Below are positions 4,332 to 35,049 of a DNA stretch of 64,000 nucleotides, one piece after another; within the stretch, counting starts at the first letter, position 1; each line of letters begins with the position of its first letter. The stretch covers positions 1,329,628 to 1,393,627 of the forward strand of contig CP129495.1 of the NCBI GenBank assembly GCA_030584185.1. The letters run 5' to 3'. This DNA is from Acidimicrobiia bacterium (GTDB taxonomy: Bacteria; Actinomycetota; Acidimicrobiia; Spongiisociales; UBA11373). A model generated the notes under the pieces. The model saw nothing but the letters and a program-made list of their open reading frames with translations, had not been told where the DNA came from and did no database searches. The position numbers and the translations under genes are program-made.

Positions 4332-5564
4332 TCACGGATGATTCGCGTCGAGCTCCGTGACCAGCAGGTTGCCCGGGATCAGGGCACCGGTCTCGTAGGT
4401 GCCCACCCAGATGTCGTAAGTGCCGTCGAGGGCGGTGATGAAGTCGATCGTCGGGTTGAAGGTGTCGTACGAGTCGTCGGCACACCACCAGTCGCCGGCG
4501 GGATCGTTGATCACCATCACGGTGTCCGCAGACGGGTCGTCGGCGACGAAGTAGACCCGCAACGAGTTGCCGGCGGCACCGCTGAAGACCAGCTCGAGGT
4601 CGGGCTGGGAGGTGACGAACCCGGCGCATTCGCCTCCCAGGTAGGCGGAGACATCGATGTCGCCTCCGGCCTCCATGGCCAGTGCCTGCGGATCGGGCTC
4701 GAAGCCACTGATCAGTTCGGCACTGCCGTAGTTGGCGTCGAGGGCGGCGTCCAGCGCCCCACCGTCCCCGGTCAGGTTGTTGACGTAGAACGAGTTGACG
4801 ATCTCGTCGGCGGCTGCCAGATCGGCTTCCGAGATCATGGTGATGGCCACGAGCACGGTGAACTCCTCACCCGGGGGACGGGCGATGATCACCGCCTGAG
4901 CGGTACCCACACCGTCACAGTTCTCCCACCAGTCGAGCACCCCGGCGTAGGCGCCGTCGTCGTACTCGTAGCGGCCGGCGTAGGTGCACTCGCCGGAGAG
5001 GGGGGCGAAGACGTCGAGGATCTCCTCCACGGACCCGACGAGGAGGGCGGTGGCGCCAAAGGTGACGCCAGGTGTCGTCCAGGTGGAGTTCCAGTCGGCG
5101 ATGCTCGGGGCGGAGGTCACCTGCACCCCGATGCCGTCGGGGCCGGCGTCCAACCCGAACGGGTTGTCCACCCAGGCGCCGCCTTCCACGTCCGACCAGG
5201 CCGCCGGAACGTTCACGGTCAGGATCCCGGTGTCGTCGGTGATCGCCACGTACTCGTCGTACACATTGCCGGTCGGCTCGTCGGGGATCTCAGTGGGCGC
5301 CTCGCCCTGCTGCAACCCACTGGCCAGGGACAGGCCTTCGGCACGGTTGTCGCCGGGCTTGGTCGTGTCGGTGACCGCCGTCGTCGTGGTAGTCGGGATG
5401 GCCGTGGTCACCGGGGCGGCGGTGGTATCGGGGGACGCGGTGGTGGAGCTCGGGGCGGCCTCCCCGCCACAGGCGGCCACAGCGACCAGGAACAGGCCGA
5501 GGACGAGTCGAACGAGATGGCGGGACGTGGGAATCCTCCGGTAGATGGACGCGGATGATCGCAC
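4332..5564 (-). CDS. Putative secreted lipoprotein, Thr-rich linker, function unknown
   Basis: The frame is open from a TTG at 5651. No ATG exists near the signal peptide, so the GTG at 5564 (about 410 residues) is the better guess; neither start has a strong ribosome binding site. An Arg-containing n-region and hydrophobic stretch end in the lipobox VAAC, followed by an Ala/Thr/Pro-rich linker typical of actinobacterial lipoproteins. The rest (about 330 residues) is acidic, rich in Asp, Gly, Trp and aromatic strands and looks like an extracellular beta domain; two conserved-looking halves can be seen around the Cys pair GECTYAG and ENCDGVG. No enzyme motif is recognised. The stop codon abuts the right heptamer array. 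Confidence 0.65.
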   Translation of the reverse strand: MRSSASIYRRIPTSRHLVRLVLGLFLVAVAACGGEAAPSSTTASPDTTAAPVTTAIPTTTTTAVTDTTKPGDNRAEGLSLASGLQQGEAPTEIPDEPTGNVYDEYVAITDDTGILTVNVPAAWSDVEGGAWVDNPFGLDAGPDGIGVQVTSAPSIADWNSTWTTPGVTFGATALLVGSVEEILDVFAPLSGECTYAGRYEYDDGAYAGVLDWWENCDGVGTAQAVIIARPPGEEFTVLVAITMISEADLAAADEIVNSFYVNNLTGDGGALDAALDANYGSAELISGFEPDPQALAMEAGGDIDVSAYLGGECAGFVTSQPDLELVFSGAAGNSLRVYFVADDPSADTVMVINDPAGDWWCADDSYDTFNPTIDFITALDGTYDIWVGTYETGALIPGNLLVTELDANHP

Positions 5565-28193: not shown

Positions 28194-29564
28194 TCATCGA
28201 GTTCTCCGCAGACTTTGCAACAGGGCTGTGACACGATCGAACAGGGTCGGGTCGATGGTCATGAGGCGGTTGACGTTGTTGACGCCGTGAAGCACCGTGG
28301 TGTGGTCGCGCCCTCCGAACAAGCCGCCGATCTTTGGCAGCGAGAGGTCGGTCAACTCCCGGCACAGGTACATGGCGACCTGTCGGGCGCGGGCCAGGGG
28401 CTGCCGCCTGCTGGGGCCCTCGAGGTCGGGCATGGAGACACCGAAGGACTCGGCGGTCGCAACCAGGATTCGCTGAGGACTGATCGGAGCCTGCCCATGG
28501 GCCGGGCCAAGGTCCTGGAGCACGTCCTCGGCCATGGCCAGGTCGATCGGCTGCTGCGTCAGGGCGGCGTACGCCGTGACCCGGGTCAGCGCTCCTTCCA
28601 GCTCCCGAATGTTGTCCACCACCCGGTTGGCGATGAACTCGAGGACAGCCTGGGGGACCTTGACCGGGGCGTAGGCGGCGTTCTTGCGGAGAATCGCCAA
28701 CCGGGTCTCGACGTCGGGGGGCTGGATGTCGGTGGTGAGCCCCCACTCGAAGCGGCTCCGGATCCGATCCTCGAGTGAAGAGAGCGACCGTGGCGGCCGA
28801 TCGGCCGAGAACACGAGTTGCTTTCCCGCCTCGTACAGGGAGTTGAAGGTGTGGAAGAACTCCTCGAGGATCTGTTCCTTGCCCTCCAGGAACTGCACGT
28901 CGTCGAGCAACAACATGTCGACGCCGCGGTACCGACCCTTGAACTCGTCCATGCGCTTCTTGCGAATCCCGTCGATGAACTGGTTGAAGAACGCCTCCGA
29001 CGACAGGTAGGTGATCTGCAGGCGAGGGTTGAGGTCGTGTCCGTGCTGGGCGATCGCCTGCAGCAGGTGGGTCTTCCCCAGGCCGGCGCCGCCGAACACG
29101 AAGAGGGGGTTGTAGTGGCCGCCCGGCTGTTCGGCGATGGCCATGGCGGCGGCGTGGGCGAAGCGATTGCCCTGGCCGACGACGAAGTTCTCGAACGAGT
29201 ACTTAGGGACCAGGCGACCGTCTTCCGGTCCGACGCTCCCCCCGGGAGCGATCACCGGGGCCGTCGGCTCCGGCTCCGGTTCGTCGTCCATGATGGGTCC
29301 GTCAAAGGCAGGATCTTCGGAGGCGGCGAGCTCGACGACGACGCCGGGGTGGAAGGTCTCGGCGGCCACCTCGGTGAGGAGTTCGCTGTACTTGTCGGCG
29401 ACCCAACGCAGGTGGAACTCGCTGGGAGCGACGACGCGGACGACGCTGCCGTCCACCTCGAGGACCAGGCTCTCCAGCCATGCTCTCCATGTGACGGGGG
29501 TCACGCGGCCCTTCAGTGCGTGGCGAAAGCGCTCCCAATTGTCCGCGGCAGGATGCGGCTCCAC
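28194..29564 (-). CDS. dnaA: Chromosomal replication initiator DnaA
   Basis: 456 residues from GTG 29564. The frame is open to a TTG at 29588, but AAGGAG and GGGGAGG lie just before 29564. Domain I (to about 85), acidic linker rich in DEPEPEP, AAA+ domain with Walker A GGAGLGKTH (about 158-166) and Walker B LLLDDVQFL, and domain IV with the DnaA-box-binding GGRDHTTVLHGVNNV near the C-terminus are all present. It unwinds oriC, which begins right after its stop codon. DnaA boxes at 29609-29640 in its own leader suggest autoregulation. Confidence 0.97.
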   Translation of the reverse strand: MEPHPAADNWERFRHALKGRVTPVTWRAWLESLVLEVDGSVVRVVAPSEFHLRWVADKYSELLTEVAAETFHPGVVVELAASEDPAFDGPIMDDEPEPEPTAPVIAPGGSVGPEDGRLVPKYSFENFVVGQGNRFAHAAAMAIAEQPGGHYNPLFVFGGAGLGKTHLLQAIAQHGHDLNPRLQITYLSSEAFFNQFIDGIRKKRMDEFKGRYRGVDMLLLDDVQFLEGKEQILEEFFHTFNSLYEAGKQLVFSADRPPRSLSSLEDRIRSRFEWGLTTDIQPPDVETRLAILRKNAAYAPVKVPQAVLEFIANRVVDNIRELEGALTRVTAYAALTQQPIDLAMAEDVLQDLGPAHGQAPISPQRILVATAESFGVSMPDLEGPSRRQPLARARQVAMYLCRELTDLSLPKIGGLFGGRDHTTVLHGVNNVNRLMTIDPTLFDRVTALLQSLRRTR

Positions 29565-29608
29565 GTCCTCCCCTTCTCTCCTTGGCAACGGCCCCTACTC
29601 CCATCCGG

Positions 29609-29640
29609 TTCTCCACAGGACTATCCACAACTGTGGAGAA
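29609..29640. promoter_or_regulatory. DnaA-box palindrome upstream of dnaA
   Basis: TTCTCCACA (29609-29617) and TGTGGAGAA (29632-29640) are perfect inverted copies around CTATCCACA (29621-29629), one mismatch from the consensus box. They lie between the dnaA start and its likely promoter. The surrounding gap 29565-30027 (463 nt) otherwise holds the dnaA promoter at 29735, the rpmH promoter at 29961 and no gene that I can support. Confidence 0.7.
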
Positions 29641-30792: not shown

Positions 30793-31715
30793 TGTCGTCG
30801 ATCTGGAACGGGCTCCAGGACCTGCTCGGGGGAACCCTGACGTTCTTCTACGAATGGATTCCCAACTTCGGGATCGCCGTGATCCTTCTCACCATCGCCG
30901 TAGGCCTGGTGATGTTCCCGTTGACCCTGAAGCAGACCCGCTCCATGAAGGCCATGCAGGAGATCCAGCCCGAGATCAAGCGTATTCAGCGCGAGTTCAA
31001 GGCCGACAAGCCCGCCCAGCAGGCGGCGATGATGGCGCTCTACAAGGAAAAGGGCGTCAACCCGGCTGCGGGTTGCCTGCCCCTGCTCTTGCAGATGCCG
31101 ATCTGGTTCGCCCTGTTCAGCGTGTTGCGTTCCTTCTCCGCCGCATCGAGCGACCCCCTGAAGTACGTCACCTCGGGCAGCGACCTGGAGGCTGCGATCG
31201 CCGCCGGAAAGTCGCTCGACTTTTTGTGGATGGATTTGGCAGTCTCCCCAAACGAGGCCCTCAGTGGCAGCGAGGCGCTGGGGATCAGCGGGAGCTTCAT
31301 GGGGGCGGTTCCCTACCTGCTCACCATCGCCCTGGTCGTTCTCACCGCCTACTGGCAGCAGAAGCAGACGATGGCCAAGCAGCAGCCCGGACAGCAGCAG
31401 CCCGGACAGGCCATCATGAAGATTTTTCCACTCTTCTTTGGTTTCATATCGTTCAATCTTCCCGCTGGTCTCGTGGTGTACTTCGCGGCCAGCCAGCTGT
31501 TCCGGATCGGCCAGCAGGCCTTGATCTTGAACCTCGACGACAGGCGGGATGAGCCCGCTGCTCGGCCGGCCAAGGCCAAGGGCGGTGCGCCCGGCAGTCA
31601 GGGCCCGGGGCGGGCAGTGGAGACTCAGGCCGAGGCGGCCACACCGCAGCGGCCGGAGAGCCGACGGCCCCAAGGGTCCAAGAAGCGGCGCAACAAGAAG
31701 CGCAGAAGGAGTTGA
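30792..31715 (+). CDS. yidC: Membrane protein insertase YidC/Oxa1
   Basis: 307 residues from ATG 30792, overlapping the yidD stop. Helices: residues 25-50, 100-120, 170-190 and a C-terminal pair; the Oxa1 core LTLKQTRSMKAMQEIQPEIKRIQ and GCLPLLLQMPIWFALFSVLR is typical. A long basic cytoplasmic tail (after about residue 250, ending KKRRNKKRRRS) may touch the ribosome. No periplasmic P1 domain, as usual for Gram-positive types. Confidence 0.94.
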   Translation: MSSIWNGLQDLLGGTLTFFYEWIPNFGIAVILLTIAVGLVMFPLTLKQTRSMKAMQEIQPEIKRIQREFKADKPAQQAAMMALYKEKGVNPAAGCLPLLLQMPIWFALFSVLRSFSAASSDPLKYVTSGSDLEAAIAAGKSLDFLWMDLAVSPNEALSGSEALGISGSFMGAVPYLLTIALVVLTAYWQQKQTMAKQQPGQQQPGQAIMKIFPLFFGFISFNLPAGLVVYFAASQLFRIGQQALILNLDDRRDEPAARPAKAKGGAPGSQGPGRAVETQAEAATPQRPESRRPQGSKKRRNKKRRRS

Positions 31716-31717
31716 CG

Positions 31718-32584
31718 ATGGTGGAATGGGTCGAGGTCGAAGGGCCGAGCGTCGACACGGCGATACAAGCAGCACTCAACGAGCTGGGCCTTGCGTCGAG
31801 AGACGAGGCGGACATCGAGATCATCAGGGAGGGCCAGCGCGGTTTTCTCGGCATGGGGGGTACCGACGCCCTGGTTCGAGTCAAGCGCAAGGAGGAGTCG
31901 GCCAACAAGAGGCGCCGAGGCCGGGGGGGTCGCCGCAGTGAGGACGCAGGCTCGGGCGGAGCGAAGAGACCCGACGAGGGTCGGCGACCGAGGGTCGGCG
32001 ACCGAGCGCCGGCAGGTGATTCGCGCTCGAAGGAGAGAGCACCGCGGTCCGGCAGGGAGAAGACCGATCAGCGTCGAGCCAAGGAGGCCCCGGTGCGAAC
32101 GCCATCATCCGATGATGATCGGGAGGAGATCTCGATCGAGGAACAACAAACGGTGATCACGACATTCCTCAATGGGTTGCTCACTGCATTCGGTCTGGAG
32201 GGAACCGTCGCCGGCCGTATCGAGGACGAGGCGATCTTCGTCGACGTGACGGGCGAGCAGACCGAGGCGTTGGTCGGTGCCAAGGGGAGCAACATCCAGG
32301 CGACCTTGGAGCTCTGCCGCACCGTTGTGCAGCGGCGCACGATGGCTGGAGCGAAGATCAGGCTCGACATCGCCGGATACTCGGAGCGACGCCGTGAGGC
32401 ACTCCGGATCTACGCCGCCCGTCTGGCGGAGAAGGTCCTGTCCGAGGGTGGCGAGGTCATGCTGGAGCCCATGAACGCCGCCGACCGCAAGGTGGTTCAC
32501 GACACGATCGCCGAGATGGAGGGCGTTCGGTCTTTCAGCGAGGGCGAGGAACCGCGTCGATCGGTCGTGATCGCCGCAGAGTGA
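31718..32584 (+). CDS. jag: RNA-binding protein Jag/KhpB (Jag-N, KH, R3H)
   Basis: 288 residues from ATG 31718, with AGAAGGAG 6 nt upstream, which decides against the TTG at 31712. Jag-N domain: WVEVEGPSVDTAIQAALNEL and RGFLGMGGTDALVRV (1-55). A ~85-residue Arg/Lys/Ser-rich linker follows. KH domain has VGAKGSNIQATLELCRTVV, and R3H ends with ADRKVVHDTIAEMEGVRSFSEGEEPRR. It partners with KhpA in RNA-based control of cell division and envelope growth in Gram-positives. Last gene of the operon, followed by a terminator. Confidence 0.93.
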   Translation: MVEWVEVEGPSVDTAIQAALNELGLASRDEADIEIIREGQRGFLGMGGTDALVRVKRKEESANKRRRGRGGRRSEDAGSGGAKRPDEGRRPRVGDRAPAGDSRSKERAPRSGREKTDQRRAKEAPVRTPSSDDDREEISIEEQQTVITTFLNGLLTAFGLEGTVAGRIEDEAIFVDVTGEQTEALVGAKGSNIQATLELCRTVVQRRTMAGAKIRLDIAGYSERRREALRIYAARLAEKVLSEGGEVMLEPMNAADRKVVHDTIAEMEGVRSFSEGEEPRRSVVIAAE

Positions 32585-32602: not shown

Positions 32603-32630
32603 GGGGGGTCGACGGCAGCGTCGGCCCCCC
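32603..32630 (+). terminator. Rho-independent terminator after jag
   Basis: GGGGGGTCGAC pairs with GTCGGCCCCCC (one G-T wobble) around a 6-nt loop, followed by TTCTTGTTT. The T-run overlaps the first parS site. Confidence 0.75.
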
Positions 32631-32634
32631 TTCT

Positions 32635-32719
32635 TGTTTCACGTGGAACACCCGGATGGTACGACACACCGTTTCACGTGGAACACCCGGATGGTACGAC
32701 ACACCGTTTCACGTGGAAC
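32635..32719. repeat. parS: Three parS centromere sites in a 35-bp tandem repeat
   Basis: GTTTCACGTGGAAC occurs at 32636-32649, 32671-32684 and 32706-32719, exactly 35 bp apart. The whole 35-bp unit is repeated perfectly twice (32636-32670, 32671-32705), followed by a third partial copy. The 14-mer is the near-palindromic ParB-binding site of bacterial chromosomes. The cluster sits between jag and rsmG, 0.7 kb from parA. Confidence 0.93.
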
Positions 32720-32764
32720 ACCACCTGAGGGCATCGGTGCGCCGCGAGCCGCGGGTATGCTTGC

Positions 32765-33415
32765 ATGGTGCCAGACTCTTCCGAACTCGCAGCCAGGGCC
32801 GCCGAGTGGGCGGGTCATGGCTTCGATGAAGGTCGCGCCGCACTGCTGGAGGATTTCGCCGCCTGGCTGATCGCTGAAGCGATGCCGGCGGGAGGCCTCG
32901 GCCCACGCGAAGGGGGCCGCTTGTGGGGGAGGCACATTGCCGACTCGCTCACATTCGCCAGTGCGTGGGAGGTACCTCCCCTCGAGATCCTGGACGTGGG
33001 TAGTGGTGTCGGGCTGCCCGGGATCCCGCTGGCCATCCTTTGGCCCGAGACCGAGGTCACTCTCCTCGATCGTGGCGGAAGGCGCATCCGACTCCTCAGG
33101 CGAGCCATTCAGGTGTTGGGTTTGACCAACGTCCACTTCGCCCAGGGCGACGTCTTCGACGTGGCGGACACCTGGGTCGGCATCACGTTTCGAGGTTCTG
33201 TGAAGCCTCCCGAGGCCGTTGGATTGTCGGCACGGATGCTGGTTCCAGGTGGTGTATCGGTGGTCGGACTCAGCCGGCGAGAGGATCCCCCGGAGCGCGG
33301 CCGCGACCTGATCGGCGTGGCCGAAGCACTTGGTCTAGCGGCTCGAATCGAGAGGGTTCCCTCGGAGGTCCTTGACGGAGCCGCCTGGCTCCTTATCATG
33401 ACGGCCGGTGAATGA
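32765..33415 (+). CDS. rsmG: 16S rRNA 7-methylguanosine methyltransferase RsmG (GidB)
   Basis: 216 residues. It methylates N7 of 16S G527 (E. coli numbering) using SAM. The SAM loop LEILDVGSGVGLPGIPLAI (around residues 73-91), the preceding HIADSL and the C-terminal VKPPEAVGLSARMLVPGG are visible. ATG 32765 chosen; GTG 32768 is also possible. Overlaps parA by 8 bp, giving the widespread rsmG-parA-parB order. Confidence 0.93.
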   Translation: MVPDSSELAARAAEWAGHGFDEGRAALLEDFAAWLIAEAMPAGGLGPREGGRLWGRHIADSLTFASAWEVPPLEILDVGSGVGLPGIPLAILWPETEVTLLDRGGRRIRLLRRAIQVLGLTNVHFAQGDVFDVADTWVGITFRGSVKPPEAVGLSARMLVPGGVSVVGLSRREDPPERGRDLIGVAEALGLAARIERVPSEVLDGAAWLLIMTAGE

Positions 33416-34199
33416 ACCCGTCTCCCCACACGGAGTCGTAGTCGCCGTCGCCAATCAGAAGGGCGGCGTCGGGAAGTCGACCACGACGATCAATCTGGCT
33501 GCGGCACTCGCCAAGAGGGGCGAACGGGTTCTCGTCGTGGACACCGACCCCCAGGCCAACGCCACCAGCGGTCTCGGGGTGGACCGGAGGACCGTGGAGA
33601 GGTCGATCTACGACGTCCTGGTGGGGGACACCACCCTCGACGAGATCCTGGAGCCGACAGCGATGAAGAACCTCTTCGTCGCCCCCTCCACCATCGACCT
33701 GGCCGCCGTCGAGATCGAGCTCGTTGCCCGATACTCGCGGGAGCGTCTGTTGGCCAACGCACTCTCCAGGATGGAGCAGAAGTTCGCGACAGTGTTCATC
33801 GACTCACCACCGAGCCTCGGTCTGATCACGGTGAATGCGCTCACCGCAGCCCATGAGGTGCTGATTCCCATTCAGGCGGAGTACTACGCCCTCGAGGGTC
33901 TCACCCAATTGCTGCGGTCGATCCAAGCGATTCAGACCAACCTTAACCCTCAACTCAAGATTGAGGGAGCGGTGATCACCATGTACGATCGGCGGACGAC
34001 GCTGGCGGCAGATGTGGAGAGACAGGTGAGGGAGTACTTCGGCGATGTCGCCTACGAGACGATCATCCCTCGGGTGATCCGGCTCGCCGAGGCGCCCTCC
34101 TTCGGTGAGCCGATCGAGTCCTTCGATCCCAAGAGCGTCGGTGCCAAGGCGTACCGAGCGCTGGCCGACGAGTTCAGGAGGAGACATGGCAGCGCGTAA
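33408..34199 (+). CDS. parA: Chromosome partitioning ATPase ParA (Soj)
   Basis: 263 residues from GTG 33408. Deviant Walker A KGGVGKSTT (18-26), Walker A-prime VVDTDPQANAT (43-53) and Walker B VFIDSPPSLG are intact; no N-terminal regulatory domain, so it is the chromosomal Soj type. It moves ParB-parS complexes over the nucleoid by ATP-dependent dimerisation. The 3' end overlaps parB by 14 bp. Confidence 0.95.
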   Translation: MNEPVSPHGVVVAVANQKGGVGKSTTTINLAAALAKRGERVLVVDTDPQANATSGLGVDRRTVERSIYDVLVGDTTLDEILEPTAMKNLFVAPSTIDLAAVEIELVARYSRERLLANALSRMEQKFATVFIDSPPSLGLITVNALTAAHEVLIPIQAEYYALEGLTQLLRSIQAIQTNLNPQLKIEGAVITMYDRRTTLAADVERQVREYFGDVAYETIIPRVIRLAEAPSFGEPIESFDPKSVGAKAYRALADEFRRRHGSA

Positions 34200-35049
34200 G
34201 TCAGGGCTGGGACGGGGCCTGGAGGCACTGTTGGCGGCCGAAACACCCGTGGAGGGCTACGCCACGCTTCCGGTCGACAGCATCGATCCGAACCGGCGCC
34301 AGCCCAGGGAGCGATTCGACAGCGAGGCCCTGGAGTCCCTGGCCGATTCCATCAGGAGCGTCGGCCTCCTCCAACCGATCGTGGTGCGGCCTGCAGGCGC
34401 CGACGGCCGCCATGAGCTCGTGGCGGGCGAACGCCGCTTGCGGGCGGCGCGAATGGCCGGCCTCACCGAGATCCCGGCCGTGATCAAGGACGGCGACGAC
34501 GAGGGACGACTGGTCGAGGCGGTCGTGGAGAACGTGCAGCGCCAGGACCTCGACGTGCTCGAGGAGGCGGCGGCGTACCGAGTCCTCATGGAAGATTTTG
34601 GGTTGACTCACGACGAGGTGGCCAGCCGGGTGGCGAAGAGCCGGTCGGCGGTGACGAACACGGTTCGTCTTCTCAACCTCCCCGGAGCGATTCAGGCTCT
34701 TCTGGCGGAGGGAACCCTCAGCGCCGGTGCGGGCCGGGCGCTGCTGGGAACCAGCGACATCGCATTCGCCGTGAGAACGGCGCAGCGGGCCGTCGCCGAG
34801 GGATGGTCGGTGCGCCAGGTGGAGGATGCGGTACGGGCTCGTGAGAGCGAAGACGGTGATTCGGCGCCCAAGCCGCGACCCCGGGTGGAGCGTTCGGCGC
34901 AGATCCTCGCTCTCGAGGAACGCCTGGGGGAACGGCTGGGTAGCCCGGTTCGGATCGACTACAGCAGGCGCGGCGGAGGCCGCCTCACAGTGCGCTTCGG
35001 TTCATTGGACGACCTGGAACGGATCTACCGCGCACTTCTCGGAGGCTGA
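34186..35049 (+). CDS. parB: Chromosome partitioning protein ParB (Spo0J)
   Basis: 287 residues from ATG 34186 with AGGAGGAG just upstream. The N-terminal ParA-stimulating peptide SGLGRGLEALLA, the CTP-binding box GERRLRAARMAG (about 82-93) and VENVQRQDLDVLEEAAAYR, the helix-turn-helix TLTHDEVASRVAKSRSAVTNTVRLL (as GLTHDEVA..., about 143-165) and a C-terminal dimerisation domain are visible. It loads at the parS repeats at 32635. The 3' end overlaps the convergent pseudo-amidase gene by 25 bp. Confidence 0.95.
   Translation: MAARKSGLGRGLEALLAAETPVEGYATLPVDSIDPNRRQPRERFDSEALESLADSIRSVGLLQPIVVRPAGADGRHELVAGERRLRAARMAGLTEIPAVIKDGDDEGRLVEAVVENVQRQDLDVLEEAAAYRVLMEDFGLTHDEVASRVAKSRSAVTNTVRLLNLPGAIQALLAEGTLSAGAGRALLGTSDIAFAVRTAQRAVAEGWSVRQVEDAVRARESEDGDSAPKPRPRVERSAQILALEERLGERLGSPVRIDYSRRGGGRLTVRFGSLDDLERIYRALLGG

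Follow-up and report, generated by a model that had tools for sequence, protein, structure and literature searches.

The window analysed here, a 64-kb stretch of DNA, carries an array of parS sites flanked upstream by jag (eloR; 31712 to 32584; NF041568 above cut-off) and downstream by rsmG, parA and parB, all four genes being encoded on the forward strand. The jag transcript is probably closed by an intrinsic-terminator-like hairpin on the same strand (32603 to 32630; 12 pairs, 10 of them G-C), which ends 4 bp 5′ of the first parS site. On the other side of the array come rsmG (gidB; 32765 to 33415; PF02527, E=1.5e-23), parA (33408 to 34199; AAA_31, E=1.6e-63), which encodes a Walker ATPase with the Walker A motif KGGVGKST and adjoins parB on the same strand, and parB itself (34186 to 35049), the sole TIGR00180 match of the genome, with GERR and ENVQR motifs. 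These family matches bear out the earlier note, made from the sequence of the window, in which the array was said to adjoin rsmG-parA-parB. The start codon of rsmG may be ATG 32765 or GTG 32768, and the latter may be the real one. The dnaA gene (28194 to 29588, reverse strand), identified by reading its translation, is followed past its 5′ end by an oriC-like gap with near-consensus DnaA boxes at 29609-29640. Both dnaA and these boxes are about 3 kb away from the array, and together they would place the replication origin close to it.

The 64-kb window contains three sites that match TGTTTCACGTGAAACA with no more than two mismatches, at 32635-32650, 32670-32685 and 32705-32720, all on the forward strand; the chance expectation is 0.05 (with up to three mismatches allowed), and no shuffled sequence gave three matches. 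The first site, TGTTTCACGTGGAACA, has one mismatch to the palindromic consensus and is identical to the common TGTTYCACGTGRAACA form, and it is the only one to carry this full 16-mer. The second and third sites both read CGTTTCACGTGGAACA: their first base is C, and they deviate from the palindromic TGTTYCACGTGRAACA type in this outer base only. The start-to-start distance is 35 bp in both intervals, for an array of 86 bp in total. Motif matching and repeat comparison thus both confirm the exact 35-bp spacing described in the earlier note, whose coordinates were correct to within one base. Its description of the repeats as perfect has to be split, however. It holds for the two complete 35-bp units, each made of a parS core and a spacer (forward strand, 32636 to 32670 and 32671 to 32705), which are identical at 35 of 35 bases, but not for the third copy (32706 to 32722, forward strand), which shares 17 bases (GTTTCACGTGGAACACC) and then diverges.

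The 14-mer GTTTCACGTGGAAC occurs three times in the single-contig genome of 2,211,559 bp, of which the window covers 1329628-1393627, and each time within the array; this is the genome-wide count that the earlier note had proposed as a check. Furthermore, no parS with one mismatch was found elsewhere in these 2,211,559 bp, and the idea of further parS sites outside the array, down to one mismatch, was therefore rejected. Sites with two mismatches number four in the rest of the genome (the counts for the reversed control pattern were 0 and 1). All the recognisable centromere sites of this chromosome are therefore contained within 86 bp. The only ParB-family protein of the genome has all three canonical domains (PF02195, PF17762 and PF23552, above cut-off), and SMC (775.8 bits) and ScpA, the proteins expected of an SMC loading site, are both encoded.

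We consider that the array is an ordinary oriC-proximal ParABS centromere and SMC-loading zone, the third parS of which arose by tandem duplication of a 35-bp unit, and we give this reading a probability of about 93%. By homology with characterized systems, ParB is expected to bind and load at the array and to recruit SMC there. In the mechanism that we propose, ParB-CTP would load at every parS and then slide away as a clamp, the sliding clamps would form a partition complex moved by ParA, and ParB at the array would recruit SMC-ScpAB. Multiple parS sites would raise loading capacity and robustness and call for no new mechanism. In Corynebacterium glutamicum, indeed, one parS is enough and the extra sites add robustness (PMC7083940). 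Single-molecule work on ParB showed no condensation with 1, 2 or 4 parS sites and condensation with 7 or more (PMC8299390), so it would be unsafe to suppose that the three sites can condense DNA unaided.

How common is such an arrangement among relatives? An exact IUPAC parS was found in 91 of the 138 genomes of the order that were searched. The absence of parS from the other 47 was considered and rejected, as many of them are explained by one-base variants at the same place, with the cores CACGGG, CCCGTG or CACGTT. Using rsmG as the anchor, we collected 120 stretches from relatives, among them 108 rsmG-anchored loci, about 100 of which have one to three parS-like sites directly 5′ of rsmG; over all the stretches of the order these sites amount to 160, whereas shuffled sequence gave about 8. 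A single site is found in many of these relatives. Two or three sites no more than 80 bp apart, most often 33-37 bp, are found in 23 of the 61 genera of the order, and in the window's own family we found pairs at 26, 34, 35, 36, 37 and 42 bp. In a sample of the phylum comprising 396 genomes and 246 genera, tight pairs (20-50 bp) were present in 81 of the genomes and 39 of the genera.

Two groups of relatives depart from the usual site sequence. In genus g35 (L109-L112 and L158-L160) the site 5′ of rsmG is consistently TGTTTCACGGGAAACA, its core altered to CACGGG, while other genera have CCCGTG or CACGTT; such altered cores suggest that the specificity of ParB may have shifted in these lineages. 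In genus g5 (L052 and L053, from G005 and G006), GTTGTCACGTGGAACA, possibly a diverged parS, is found in 36-bp tandem units that also contain GTTTCACCGTCG.

Dense clusters are not confined to the order. When one genome per species was scanned for triples of exact parS sites 22-52 bp apart, such triples turned up on at least 118 contigs. Their sources span many phyla and include Streptomyces and other actinobacteria, Bacilli, Clostridia, Flavobacterium and its relatives, several proteobacteria, acidobacteria and planctomycetes. Several perfect or near-perfect tandem parS units occur among the 80 loci listed, with unit lengths of 35 bp (L184), 44 bp (L174), 42 bp (L176) and 48 bp (L199). The first of these, from an uncultured, AT-rich member of the Bacilli (CALVQR010000002.1), carries its three parS as a perfect tandem repeat of 35 bp, which is essentially the architecture of the window. 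Another stretch, from a metagenome-assembled genome of uncultured Bacilli (L243, CALVVV010000018.1), has 15 parS at 35-37 bp, compared with three in the window; these fifteen tandem sites (4571-5117) run to the end of the stretch and form a sopC-like chromosomal array. Both stretches come from an unrelated phylum, and their spacers are AT-rich and without similarity to those of the window. Clustering of parS sites has been described as the rule (PMC8357415). The view that chromosomal parS sites are usually scattered singly, from which the earlier note set out, is contradicted by the 23 genera with sites no more than 80 bp apart and by the triples on at least 118 contigs. The array can likewise no longer be called unusual: clusters just as dense, which the same note had named as evidence against its view, are present in relatives within the order.

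The suggestion of a recent expansion fared better. The identity of the two units speaks for it, as do the two-site clusters at 33-37 bp in relatives, and the clusters at 34-37 bp in the window's own family agree with it. If two parS copies lay 35 bp apart, slippage or unequal exchange between them would duplicate one parS-plus-spacer unit, and the new unit would automatically be identical to the old one and keep the 35-bp spacing. As the spacing would thus be reproduced by construction, its equality in the two intervals needs no selection. Most likely, then, a two-site cluster became a three-site one by duplication. It is the spacing alone that leads us to infer a two-site ancestral state for the window's lineage, the spacers of other genera being unrelated.

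The position of the array raises the question of a regulatory role. A putative -10 element, TATGCT (32756 to 32761, forward strand), lies between the array and rsmG. In about one third of the 108 genomes a TANNNT precedes an in-frame start codon of rsmG by 6-8 nt: 13 genomes have it at offset 6, 20 at offset 7 and 5 at offset 8, compared with about 1 genome per offset at other positions. This placement suggests that a leaderless promoter of rsmG-parA-parB is likely to lie directly 3′ of the array. ParB bound at the array, or spreading from it, could then repress this promoter, the parS sites acting as operators. Besides the enrichment itself, parS directly abuts the -10 in genus g13 and overlaps the rsmG start codon in several single-parS genomes, and it is this abutting or overlapping that makes autoregulation of rsmG-parA-parB by ParB plausible. 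Moreover, the ParB of P. aeruginosa represses promoters next to parS3 and parS4 (PMC5521831). However, the third parS of the window ends 35 bp 5′ of the -10 and does not overlap it, and in B. subtilis genes beside parS are unaffected when Spo0J is missing (PMC7022226). We therefore regard an operator function of the array as possible but tentative, with the odds against it.

Four loci show a more compact arrangement (L132, L139, L146 and L157, from G111, G119, G130 and G123, respectively). A TATTTT-like -10 is found just 5′ of the single parS, and the GTG within the parS core CACGTG is a candidate in-frame rsmG start codon, so that parS would overlap both the transcription and the translation starts.

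A second alternative concerns the spacing. The 35 bp (about 3.4 turns) could be selected: if cooperative loading or gate closure required neighbouring ParB clamps to stand at a set distance or angle, clusters would keep to 33-37 bp even as their spacer sequences drifted. In line with this, a single 5-bp interval of spacing accounts for 10.75 of the 23 genera (p about 0.0002-0.005 according to the null, all nulls being uniform), although genera from the same order are not independent of each other and this interval was chosen after looking at the data. Spacer identity between genera is at the level of shuffled sequence (0.34 versus 0.33), and the distance from parS to rsmG, by contrast, has a standard deviation of 71 bp. 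That 33-37 bp recurs in genera whose spacers are unrelated is thus compatible with some constraint on spacing; the earlier note had raised the possibility that the spacing favours side-by-side loading of ParB. Across many phyla, the triples from 58 groups peak near 25-26, 35-38 and 45-49 bp, with none at 31-32 bp (periodicity p about 0.003), but neither this test nor that on the genera takes phylogeny into account. Furthermore, other lineages have preferences of their own: families elsewhere in the class favour 45-48 bp, one genus from another family favours 27 bp, and a genus with multiple sites, likewise from another family, often has 21-22 bp. Many relatives also function with one site. On balance we find a selected spacing rather improbable, somewhat more so than the operator function. 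A strong claim of helical phasing was dropped to a suggestion, in view of these lineage-specific spacings, 21-22 bp included, despite the p of about 0.003. The more general proposal is that parS sites in tight clusters are kept at preferred spacings (33-37 bp here; roughly 25, 36 and 46 bp more widely), which would mean that adjacent ParB clamps interact with a defined geometry at loading and would make the array a clean natural example; we think this unlikely.

Finally, an origin of the tandem repeat in misassembly, as two identical 35-bp units in a possibly metagenome-derived genome might suggest, is very improbable, since the 86-bp array should be shorter than a typical sequencing read, errors at short tandem repeats usually collapse copies, and relatives have close pairs with unrelated spacers.

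The array is thus a small local variation of the well-known ParABS system, in which tight groups of sites are normal both in relatives and in many phyla. Taken alone it carries little weight. It locates the one centromere of an actinobacterial-type lineage, and it illustrates how a parS cluster can grow through tandem duplication. A non-uniform distribution of parS-to-parS spacings would have a wider use, making cooperative loading of neighbouring ParB clamps testable.

Among known systems, the closest are the ParABS centromeres of Corynebacterium, Caulobacter and Bacillus, which share with the window a canonical 14-16-bp palindrome, a single ParA and ParB next to the site, proximity to oriC, and SMC-ScpA. 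C. glutamicum, however, has ten parS within 35 kb (PMC7083940), and the strongest parS sites of Bacillus lie kilobases from one another (PMC5815017), whereas here every site belongs to one equally spaced array of 86 bp. Myxococcus xanthus has a cluster of 22 parS in about 3 kb, at a mean distance of about 145 bp and about 4 kb from parA (PMC3899335). It resembles the window in having dense parS repeats near parA and oriC, and differs in scale, its 22 sites over some 3 kb comparing with three sites 35 bp apart. The sopC centromere of the F plasmid, a type Ia system, consists of 12 direct repeats of 43 bp, each with an inverted-repeat ParB-type site. Plasmid centromeres of the sopC kind have about ten or more direct repeats, whereas the window has, on a chromosome of 2.21 Mb, two complete units and part of a third, and so does not belong with them. 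The sequence of the site in sopC is also different, but the plan is alike, each direct repeat holding an inverted-repeat ParB-type site.
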